A DNA stretch of 64,000 nt, taken from contig NZ_BQYL01000001.1 of assembly GCF_023706045.1 (NCBI RefSeq), forward strand, positions 496,001 through 560,000. The letters run 5' to 3'. The stretch comes from Kangiella sp. TOML190 (GTDB lineage Bacteria > Pseudomonadota > Gammaproteobacteria > Enterobacterales > Kangiellaceae). A program made the translations under genes and the position numbers. Positions 1-4,994 of the stretch are shown one piece after another; the stretch's first letter is position 1, and each line of letters starts with the position of its first letter. Under the pieces are notes generated by a model. The model did not search any database. It saw only the letters and a program-made list of their open reading frames with translations, and was not told where the DNA came from.

Positions 1-311
1 AGCCTCTTCTTGATTATACCGAGCAACTCGTTAGCGGTATGCAAGCCATCGCTAAGGAAAAAGGCGTTGCTTTTACCACCAATCATGTTGGCTCTATGTT
101 TGGCTACTTCTTTAGCGACACACCTAAAATTAGCCGTTATGCTCAAGTAGCCGCTGGCAACATGGATTATTTTAAAAGCTTCTATCATAAAATGCTGGAT
201 AACCATATCTATATGGCACCCTCTGCCTTTGAGGCTGGCTTTGTCTCTTTGCAGCATGGCGACAAAGAACTGGAACAAACCTTAGATAGTTTTAGCAAAT
301 CCCTTTTGTAA
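1..311 (+). CDS. hemL: Glutamate-1-semialdehyde 2,1-aminomutase, C-terminal part
   Basis: This is the 3' end of a gene that begins before the window; the open frame is already running at base 3 and ends with TAA at 309-311. The enzyme is a PLP-dependent aminomutase that converts glutamate-1-semialdehyde to 5-aminolevulinate, the first dedicated tetrapyrrole precursor in the C5 pathway, in the cytoplasm. The visible part has the family's C-terminal features: the NHVGSMFGYFF segment, and the YMAPSAFEAGFVS segment that is strongly conserved near the end of HemL. The PLP lysine lies upstream, outside the window. The ATG at 39 is an internal methionine and not the start. Confidence 0.93.
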   Translation, partial: PLLDYTEQLVSGMQAIAKEKGVAFTTNHVGSMFGYFFSDTPKISRYAQVAAGNMDYFKSFYHKMLDNHIYMAPSAFEAGFVSLQHGDKELEQTLDSFSKSLL

Positions 312-349
312 AATAATTAGACATAAATTTACAATTAGCCACTAGAGTC

Positions 350-390
350 TAATGCAAGCTTGCATTAAAATTTAATGCAAATTTGCATTA
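350..390. promoter_or_regulatory. Two tandem 18-bp perfect palindromes, probable operator pair
   Basis: TAATGCAAGCTTGCATTA at 350-367 and TAATGCAAATTTGCATTA at 373-390 are each perfectly self-complementary. They differ only in the central bases, and their centres are 23 bp apart. There is no T-tract and they are AT-rich, so an intrinsic terminator is unlikely. Two nearly identical dyads in front of a gene suggest paired sites for a dimeric repressor or activator. The second palindrome overlaps the first possible start codon (TTG at 383) of the following GGDEF gene. The regulator is unknown. Confidence 0.6.
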
Positions 391-2176
391 TTTGATTCTG
401 GTGAGCGCTATAAGCAATTCTGATGCTCAAGAAGCAAAAGGATTTACCAACTATTTGATTCTAGGCCTGATCTTAGTGATCTTAGGCTTGGCTAGTCATG
501 CCTACAATTTATACATCGCTTCCGAAAATGAACAGCTCAGCAATCAATACCAACAAGACTTTGCTCAATATCAGCGTGATAATGTCTACTTCTCACCGCT
601 CAACACCATCAATTGGATTGAAATTCGACAAAACGAAAATGGCTACTTTGTCACCAACCCCGATCTGATCAATGAACCTTCGCAATACAACCAAAATAGT
701 TTGCGCGCAACTCGTTACGCGGTAACCACCTTGGCGCAACTAAACGGCGTTGGGAACATCAGTGAGCAGACGGTGTTAGATTTCCTTGAGAGCCGTTACC
801 ATGAGTTTGAACAAAATAACGTCAAACTTGCCGGTTTTTCAACCCTAGAAAATACTGAAGTTGCGGTTCGCACTACCATGGACGCGATCCTGACGCTGAA
901 GCATTTGGATGCTTTTGATAAGTTAAACATTGATTGGGATGCAGTACGCCGGTTTATTCTAAAGCACCAAAATTCTGATGGCGGCTTTTGGGATCCCCAT
1001 TATCCAAAATTTGGCACCACCTCTTGTTTAAAGTGTACCTCTTTTGCATTGCGCGCTTTAGGTGCTTTAAACGAGTTTGAGGGTAAACACTTCCCCAAAT
1101 CCTTCCAGCAAAAAGTTATTCATTACGTCAAAGCAAGCTGGGATAAAAATCGCGATGCCTATTCAGCTCGACTAGGAGTTGAAGCTGAAGATAGCTACGA
1201 TATTTTTCGTGCTTTTATTATTTTTTGGAATTTGACCAATGGTAATGCCGAACTAAAGCGCAACCTTGTTTTAGAGCAGTTCCCACTCGAATCGGTCGAG
1301 GAAACCTTACAAGCACACTTTATTACCAAGGATCGAGCCTATGCTCGTAAGTGGGATGCCCAATACCCGTCAATGAAAGCAACTCACCTGATGGTCTGGA
1401 TGTATTACAACTTGGGGATGCTCGATCGACTGGATAGAAATGGCATTATCGATTTTGTATTCATCAATGAAAAAAACCCCGGCGAATATGGCGGTGACAT
1501 TTATAACACCTACTCAGCCACGGGCATTTTGACCAAGCTGGATATCAATACTGAACCCTTAAGTCCACCGCAGGAACCTCAGCTACAACATTCGATACTG
1601 CCCAACTTTCTGCCTTATTTATTGTATATATTAGCTCTTGCGACAACCTTAATATATTTCAATAAAGACAAGCGTAAATTGATCGATAAAAACTTATTGC
1701 TGGAAAATAAAGCCTTTAAAGACAAGCTTACCGGACTCCACAACCGCGAATTTATTGAGCGCGCTTACCAATACCATCAAGAAACTGATGAAGTTTTAAG
1801 CCTGATCTTGATCGACATTGATAACTTCAAAGTCATCAATGACAACCATGGTCATTTGATCGGCGATAAGGTTTTGCAAGACTTTGCCAAGCTGTTACAA
1901 ACCAGTTTGCGCTCATCCGATACTTTAGCCCGCTGGGGTGGCGAAGAATTTGCATTGCTTTGCCCCTACACCGATATGAGCTCGGCGATAGTTCTAGCAG
2001 AAAAATTACGCGAAATTGTCGCTCTGGAAGATTTCGAAAACATAGGCAAATTGACGGCAAGTTTTGGTATCAGCGCCCGTGAGCAAGACGACTCTTGGAT
2101 GCAACTATTCGAGCGCGCTGATAAAGCGGTTTACCAATCCAAACAAGCTGGCCGAAACCAAGTTTCCCATATATAA
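383..2176 (+). CDS. Diguanylate cyclase with periplasmic terpenoid-cyclase-like (alpha/alpha toroid) region
   Basis: A 597-residue membrane protein. Residues 23-40 and 406-426 are hydrophobic membrane segments enclosing about 360 residues that should face the periplasm. That region resembles squalene-cyclase/prenyltransferase helical repeats: it has a QNSDGGFW motif at 196-203 and a second glycine-rich motif, GEYGGDIYNTYSA, at 367-379. The C-terminus is a GGDEF domain with the active-site GGEEF at 519-523, preceded five residues earlier by an RxxD inhibitory site (RSSD, 510-513), so it should make c-di-GMP from GTP with product inhibition. The TTG at 383 lies inside a palindrome; a GTG at 401 is an alternative start, and neither has a good ribosome binding site. 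The cyclase assignment is firm. The toroid fold is inferred from motifs, and no cyclase activity is claimed for it. Confidence 0.85.
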   Translation: MHYLILVSAISNSDAQEAKGFTNYLILGLILVILGLASHAYNLYIASENEQLSNQYQQDFAQYQRDNVYFSPLNTINWIEIRQNENGYFVTNPDLINEPSQYNQNSLRATRYAVTTLAQLNGVGNISEQTVLDFLESRYHEFEQNNVKLAGFSTLENTEVAVRTTMDAILTLKHLDAFDKLNIDWDAVRRFILKHQNSDGGFWDPHYPKFGTTSCLKCTSFALRALGALNEFEGKHFPKSFQQKVIHYVKASWDKNRDAYSARLGVEAEDSYDIFRAFIIFWNLTNGNAELKRNLVLEQFPLESVEETLQAHFITKDRAYARKWDAQYPSMKATHLMVWMYYNLGMLDRLDRNGIIDFVFINEKNPGEYGGDIYNTYSATGILTKLDINTEPLSPPQEPQLQHSILPNFLPYLLYILALATTLIYFNKDKRKLIDKNLLLENKAFKDKLTGLHNREFIERAYQYHQETDEVLSLILIDIDNFKVINDNHGHLIGDKVLQDFAKLLQTSLRSSDTLARWGGEEFALLCPYTDMSSAIVLAEKLREIVALEDFENIGKLTASFGISAREQDDSWMQLFERADKAVYQSKQAGRNQVSHI

Positions 2177-4703: not shown

Positions 4704-4994
4704 CTAACTAAGAATATCCGAATATAAATCATTCCAACCAGAATTATTCTTCTCTATCAATTCTATCTTCCAAGCACGCTTCCACTTTTTTAATTGCAGC
4801 TCTCTAAGAAATGCTTCTTGTAAATCATCATAGATTTCATAATAAACCAGACTTTTTACTCTGTATTTTTTTGTAAAGCCGTCAATAAGCCCCTGCTTAT
4901 GCTCATAAACTCTTTTAATTAAATTACTGGTAGCTCCCACATACAAGGTACCCTGATATTTTGAAGCTAAAATATAAACGTATCCCTGTCTCAT
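4704..4994 (-). CDS. Small GIY-YIG nuclease-domain protein
   Basis: A 96-residue single-domain GIY-YIG protein of the YhbQ/UvrC-N-like group. The first motif is YVYIL at residues 5-9 and the second LYVGA at 17-21; the family Arg and Glu/His lie in LIKRVYEHK (about 24-32). This is the usual length for the stand-alone family. It lies between two direct copies of a 78-79 bp repeat, reads on the opposite strand to its plus-strand neighbour nbaE, and separates nbaE from the rest of the kynurenine genes. Families of this type are often found beside repeats of this kind. A role in repeat or element mobility is possible but not shown; DNA repair or processing is the other option. Confidence 0.85.
   Translation of the reverse strand: MRQGYVYILASKYQGTLYVGATSNLIKRVYEHKQGLIDGFTKKYRVKSLVYYEIYDDLQEAFLRELQLKKWKRAWKIELIEKNNSGWNDLYSDILS

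Follow-up and report, generated by a model that had tools for sequence, protein, structure and literature searches.

A putative diguanylate cyclase of Kangiella sp. TOML190 with a predicted prenyltransferase-like periplasmic toroid

We analyzed a stretch of 64,000 nucleotides from Kangiella sp. TOML190 (contig NZ_BQYL01000001.1, positions 496,001 to 560,000; hereafter the window), near the start of which lies a 597-codon open reading frame (ORF) on the plus strand (383-2176). The ORF encodes, in this order, a short N-terminus, a transmembrane (TM) helix, about 360 residues, a second TM helix and a GGDEF domain. An earlier note on this DNA had reported the motifs QNSDGGFW and GEYGGDIYNTYSA between two membrane helices, ahead of the GGDEF domain, and both are present in the ORF as described. 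Immediately upstream is the end of a gene that we take to be hemL, and two perfect 18-bp palindromes lie at the boundary between the genes. Elsewhere in the window, a small ORF on the minus strand (4704-4994) presumably encodes a protein of the GIY-YIG endonuclease type. The features of the locus are collected in Table 1.

The reading frame given in the earlier note stands, but TTG 383 is probably not its start. This codon sits within the second palindrome, and the product of GTG 401 begins MSAIS..., in line with the MSRIV... encoded from the ATG start of the closest orthologue (L002). Judged from the palindrome and the orthologue alignment, GTG 401 appears to be the better start, and all residue numbers are counted from it.

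The C-terminal domain matches PF00990 with an E-value of 6.3e-40 and, with its GGEEF motif and RxxD-type site, marks the protein as a putative diguanylate cyclase. NCBIfam gives a match for the GGDEF part only and nothing for the periplasmic part, while Pfam by itself already picks up both domains (PF00432 and PF00990). By a simple hydropathy rule, the region matching PF00432 is flanked by two hydrophobic helices in 23 of 24 copies of the protein; under the same rule L101 has a third, borderline hydrophobic segment.

Table 1. Features of the toroid-GGDEF locus in the window, and the candidate regulator gene
Feature	Position	Strand	Basis or remark
Upstream neighbour, end of presumed hemL	3..311	+	C-terminal motif just upstream of the toroid gene in 15/15 Kangiella copies
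Perfect 18-bp palindrome TAATGCAAGCTTGCATTA	350..367		Candidate operator
Perfect 18-bp palindrome TAATGCAAATTTGCATTA	373..390		Candidate operator
Gene for putative toroid-GGDEF diguanylate cyclase	401..2176	+	Preferred GTG start; ORF from TTG 383; orthologue starts
TM segment 1, residues 19-37	455..511	+	Hydropathy; within helix 11-60 of full-length model
Predicted periplasmic alpha/alpha toroid, residues ~62-384 (~320 aa)	584..1552	+	PF00432; AlphaFold2 model; fold and profile matches to RabGGTase beta
QNSDGGFWDP, third repeat	968..997	+	Q, N, D, G, G, F, W and D invariant in 24/24
S-M-K, fifth repeat	1370..1378	+	Ser324 and Lys326 invariant; best-fitting place of RabGGTase beta Asp238/Cys240 (C-terminal hhalign)
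GEYGGDIYNTYSA, sixth repeat	1481..1519	+	Asn369 at likely place of His290 (fold-alignment end points, gapless last helix assumed)
TM segment 2, residues 399-417	1595..1651	+	Hydropathy
Single long helix from membrane to GGDEF domain, residues 404-438	1610..1714	+	Full-length model
GGDEF domain	1715..2161	+	PF00990 and TIGR00254
RSSD, RxxD-type inhibition site	1910..1921	+	Motif, five residues before GGEEF
GGEEF active-site motif	1937..1951	+	Motif
Cro/CI-type HTH gene, 140 residues	L037:4446-4865 = G000:C1:1733445-1733864	-	

Fold and sequence kinship of the periplasmic domain

The region between the TM helices matches PF00432 (Prenyltrans) with an E-value of 3.2e-11; its score of 43.6 bits exceeds the curated cut-off of 26.5 and places the match well above chance. 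All eight further family members scanned also exceed the cut-off (nine of nine with the window protein, of 25 copies). AlphaFold2 predicts a six-hairpin alpha/alpha toroid for this region, with a pLDDT of 94.4 and a pTM of 0.91 when it is modeled alone (16 sequences); the full-length model has a mean pLDDT of 89.6 and a pTM of 0.64 (14 sequences). The description of the region as terpenoid-cyclase-like in the earlier note is thus borne out both by the Pfam match and by the predicted fold. A fold unrelated to alpha/alpha toroids, which would have spoken against that description, was not what the structure comparison returned: the best PDB matches are beta subunits of protein prenyltransferases.

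In Foldseek, beta chains of Rab geranylgeranyltransferase (RabGGTase) occupy the top rows of the list for the toroid model (E 1.5e-8), which has 85 matches at or below 0.001. Squalene-hopene cyclases begin at rank 31, behind the prenyltransferases, and the toroid-shaped GH76 mannanase 4v1r follows at rank 44 (E 3.4e-5). VIA-align gives RabGGTase beta a Z-score of 28.8, with 280 of 320 residues aligned at an rmsd of 2.5 Å and 16% identity, and farnesyltransferase beta scores of 22.8 to 25.4; no squalene-hopene cyclase is found among the 50 matches listed. The models therefore allow a sharper statement than that of the earlier note, namely that the periplasmic domain appears to be more similar to the beta subunit of a protein prenyltransferase than to a squalene cyclase.

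Similarity of fold by itself is no proof of function. A kinship that goes beyond shape is likely, because the Pfam match is joined by a profile match: searched against PDB sequences, the family profile finds RabGGTase beta with a whole-sequence E-value of 1.6e-10, a value summed over repeat stretches of which the best single one reaches 0.045, and a terpene cyclase/mutase with an E-value of 0.0014. This search superseded one with the single sequence, which had returned only chains of CD109 (E 0.38 and 0.49).

Conserved barrel mouth and the prenyltransferase active site

Thirty-nine positions of the toroid are invariant in 24 of 24 sequences. Most of these (32 of 39) fall where the chain enters the six inner helices, in loops and initial helix turns, a zone comprising 161 of the 323 positions that we call the mouth; the hypergeometric p of about 1e-5 for this enrichment is a guide only, since the sequences are related and the zone was drawn after alignment. 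Both the zone and the roles of inner and outer helices were assigned from the order of helices in the toroid model, also after alignment. Every one of the 18 invariant polar residues lies in the mouth, and eight of the invariant mouth residues are charged (Asp88, Glu92, Arg105, Arg157, Asp161, Asp193, Asp198, and Lys326).

Prenyltransferases have their active site at the corresponding end of the barrel. The conserved mouth is the main ground on which we propose a putative ligand site, although some of the conserved glycine and aspartate residues may have a structural role. The earlier note had suggested a hydrophobic ligand or a glycan; with mouth residues that are polar, and in part charged, a ligand of polar or amphipathic character would be at least as good a fit.

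A barrel mouth can also bind a protein, the toroidal thioester domains of complement-type proteins are protein-binding, and the toroid could be a docking module for a periplasmic or outer-membrane partner protein in place of a receptor for a small ligand. The size of the domain and its conserved mouth would suit such a role, the only PDB matches of the single sequence were to CD109, even if at the E-values given above, and the short flanks of the gene show no partner gene common to Kangiella and other genera, which fits a partner encoded elsewhere. We nevertheless regard docking as unlikely, although it is the alternative that survives best: prenyltransferases are far ahead in both the fold and the profile searches, and the invariant residues cluster in the loops of a mouth, subject to the helix roles assigned from the model.

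The mouth was compared with the active site of RabGGTase beta, for which the available excerpt of PMC9141697 names Asp238, Cys240 and His290 as zinc ligands and Arg232 and Lys235 as the residues that bind diphosphate. The residue letters at these positions were confirmed against the chain sequence. When the C-terminal part is aligned with hhalign, Asp238 falls on Ser324 and Cys240 on Lys326, at the mouth end of the toroid; with the last helix taken as gapless, as the end points of the fold alignment (345/305) suggest, His290 comes to lie on Asn369. These best-fitting columns hold serine in 24 of 24 sequences, lysine in 24 of 24, and threonine, serine or asparagine in 9, 8 and 7 of 24. G-INS-i and L-INS-i place the first two ligands three residues later, on Ala327 and His329 (a column of 20 His, 3 Tyr and 1 Arg), and the third on Ser372. 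E-INS-i has aspartate at the first zinc place only, in a mixed register. The full triad is kept in none of the five MAFFT variants, nor in the hhalign alignments.

We preferred a sequential register on two grounds: the fold alignment connects the two proteins at both termini (model 23..345 to chain 16..305), and G-INS-i and L-INS-i likewise proceed one repeat at a time, though with single zinc residues three positions away from their places in hhalign. A whole-length hhalign alignment with rat RabGGTase beta, in which the register is shifted by one repeat, was set aside. Since the triad is absent from every alignment made, we reject membership in the zinc prenyltransferases; membership in the superfamily stands. 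A zinc or disulfide role for a CxxC motif was likewise dropped, the first cysteine being present in 8 of 24 sequences and the second in 15 of 24. The pattern DxDDTA/S, which stands for the catalytic DxDD acid motif of squalene-hopene cyclases, is absent from the ORF, but it makes a weak test, occurring in just 3 of 27 other PF00432 loci.

The residues that bind diphosphate bear on whether the toroid is still an enzyme, with an altered active site whose substrate might be, for example, a glycan or an isoprenoid carrier of the periplasm, and with turnover coupled to the cyclase. Under hhalign Arg232 is matched by Arg316, which would favor such an activity, as would the invariant polar and charged residues where prenyltransferases have their active site and the presence of the GH76 mannanase in the Foldseek list. 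However, the column of Arg316 is mixed (16 Arg, 7 Glu, 1 Leu), Lys235 has no matching lysine and falls on Gln321, and G-INS-i and L-INS-i put glutamine and serine at the two places, the register of the loop being uncertain. With the zinc triad kept in none of them and no alpha subunit fused in the ORF, we consider an enzymatic toroid improbable, a little more so than docking. A fixed link to a GGDEF domain is also more usual for a sensor.

Distribution of the family and its upstream palindromes

Toroid matches were found in 15 of 20 Kangiella genomes, whereas the 41 other genomes searched from the family and order have none. With profiles built on the toroid and not the GGDEF domain, five of 369 genomes of the class are positive, namely that of Kangiella sp. 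TOML190 itself and G191, G358, G408, and G122, and the order of G408 has 7 positives in 195 genomes (G408 included). The orders of G122 and G191, with three genomes searched in each, have two and one. No match beyond the genome of origin was found in a phylum sample of 398 genomes, no relatives were found on plasmids at an E-value of 1e-3, and none of 39 pattern matches on viral contigs is a relative. A profile search of the five match-less Kangiella genomes and four others returned nothing, a negative result that carries little weight by itself; G003 is 86% complete.

In all, we collected 25 distinct copies, 15 from Kangiella and ten from other members of the class. Although the wide searches used the toroid alone, both GGEEF and RxxD are present in every one of the 23 complete copies; the copy in L102 runs off the end of its contig, and that in L012 (G010) has an in-frame stop where sister species have intact copies. 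A search of 229 genomes of the class for PF00432 gave matches in 27 genomes at 31 places. At the 30 loci examined, GGEEF occurs in frame in three, all of which belong to the toroid-GGDEF family, and 19 of the other 27 lie in frames of 650-700 residues, presumably squalene-type cyclases. The toroid-GGDEF cyclases are thus a small, conserved family.

A tree of 23 copies has two Kangiella groups and a single group of the nine non-Kangiella copies (support 100/100). Group A has seven Kangiella copies, including the window gene (support 84/81); group B, with eight copies of which seven were aligned, has support of 100/100, a long branch (1.61), and is without the GEYGG and Cys motifs. The two groups (L001-L007 and L008-L015) occupy the same hemL locus and are about 36% identical. 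With midpoint rooting, group A lies closer to the non-Kangiella copies than to group B.

The hemL motif that precedes every Kangiella copy was not seen upstream of the ten other copies, of which L048 and L101 offer only 44 and 467 upstream bases. As these neighborhoods differ, the toroid and the GGDEF domain seem to have stayed together across them. Selection on sensing may nevertheless be weak in part of Kangiella, given the long branch and lost motifs of group B, its interrupted copy and the five match-less genomes.

The palindromes ahead of the window gene recur in the genome. The pattern TAATGCAANNTTGCATTA has 17 genome sites with at most two mismatches against one for the reversed control, and four other Kangiella genomes have 8-11 sites against 0-1. 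Sites on G000:C1 include 2311, 1733883/1733905, 1852555, 2294513, and 842886, among others. Thirteen of the 17 sites, in 11 stretches, were examined: 12 are intergenic and one (L043) lies within the beginning of an ORF; the second palindrome of the window counts as intergenic only with translation starting at GTG 401. In other genomes, two sites likewise fall within the beginning of a predicted gene.

One palindrome pair stands 19 bp ahead of the 140-residue HTH gene, whose product matches PF13443 with an E-value of 2e-4, exactly at the cut-off. The gene is present in 12 of 13 Kangiella genomes searched and is preceded in 12 of 12 by two sites 22 bp apart, with 0-3 mismatches in the first and 1-6 in the second; it looks autoregulated. 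Single palindromes precede a gene for a DUF3391/HD-domain protein, which we take to be of the HD-GYP type, and a TPR-GGDEF gene. Together with the HTH and toroid genes these possibly form one regulon, in which the HTH protein would be the regulator that recognizes the palindromes. Other palindromes precede genes without a clear link to c-di-GMP.

Palindrome control of the toroid gene appears to be lineage-specific, since the upstream regions of its orthologues vary in the presence and type of palindrome. L002 and L007 have one site each with two mismatches, L003-L006 have no site within four mismatches, and group B has none except a four-mismatch match in L011. Ahead of the toroid gene in L004 and L005, the place of the TAATGCA type is taken by a different palindrome with a AAGTCAAATTTGACTT core. 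The half-site CAAGTCAA of this palindrome recurs in L059-L062, where it makes up one of the two halves of the second site upstream of the HTH gene. One regulator may therefore read both halves.

Perfect palindromes upstream, five match-less Kangiella genomes and one interrupted copy might suggest that the toroid is a structural relic and that transcription alone sets the output of the cyclase, but this is very improbable given that 39 invariant positions across 24 divergent sequences indicate strong constraint.

Proposed function and comparison with known systems

We consider it probable that the protein is an inner-membrane diguanylate cyclase in which a prenyltransferase-beta-like toroid without the zinc triad has been reused as the periplasmic input domain, a sensor for a ligand. 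What was computed is the order of the domains, the predicted fold and sequence kinship of the toroid, the absence of the zinc triad, the conserved polar residues of the loops and the GGEEF and RxxD motifs; the toroid most likely descends from the prenyltransferase/terpenoid-cyclase fold and serves as a periplasmic sensor that binds a ligand.

A periplasmic molecule, or the end of a peptide or glycan, would bind in the toroid's mouth, the site at which prenyltransferases accommodate their substrates. This might shift both membrane helices, and the continuous helix between the membrane and the GGDEF domain could relay this shift to paired GGDEF domains, whose pairing would be needed for synthesis of c-di-GMP. 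By acting at the RxxD site, c-di-GMP would then keep its own production in check. In Kangiella sp. TOML190, the Cro/CI-type HTH regulator, by binding the two palindromes, probably sets transcription of the gene. A narrower version, to which we give little credence, has the toroid as a periplasmic receptor for an isoprenoid-linked molecule of the envelope, such as the undecaprenyl-phosphate carrier or its product. If it were true, c-di-GMP output would report the state of cell-envelope synthesis.

The earlier note had called the architecture unusual, and this judgment is upheld: no description of a GGDEF domain combined with a prenyltransferase/terpenoid-cyclase toroid was found in the open-licence papers searched, nor any paper on a Kangiella diguanylate cyclase. 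One paper mentions GGDEF as well as prenyltransferase and terpenoid cyclase, and in its available excerpts the two are separate topics.

Many enzymes of c-di-GMP metabolism carry sensor domains without a known ligand. For a sensor whose fold is that of a well-studied enzyme, the search would have a definite starting point in the barrel mouth and its 18 invariant polar residues. Such a sensor would also show clearly that the core of an enzyme can be put to new use in receiving signals, here with a fold best known from protein prenylation in eukaryotes.

We know of no fusion between a squalene-hopene cyclase and a GGDEF domain. Domains of the CD109/alpha-2-macroglobulin type are likewise toroids in shape. 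Their match to the Kangiella protein, over query residues 80-210, is weak and at chance level (E 0.38), and prenyltransferases are far closer to the toroid. Squalene-hopene cyclases (PDB 8paj and 8pak; 342-347 residues) belong to the same toroid superfamily and are of similar length, with Foldseek E-values of 1.7e-5 to 2.7e-5. RabGGTase beta (PF00432; PDB 6o60_B and 1dce_B) shares the same six-hairpin alpha/alpha toroid and a kinship at the level of profiles. In contrast to it, the Kangiella protein is bacterial, predicted to be periplasmic, tethered to the membrane and fused to a GGDEF domain, and has no zinc ligands in the alignments made. In its overall plan the protein resembles YedQ, a membrane diguanylate cyclase of the Cache type that, in the available excerpt of PMC4822843, is likewise membrane-bound with an extracytoplasmic input domain. 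However, the input domain of YedQ described there has a Cache fold, whereas that of the Kangiella protein is predicted to be an all-helical toroid.
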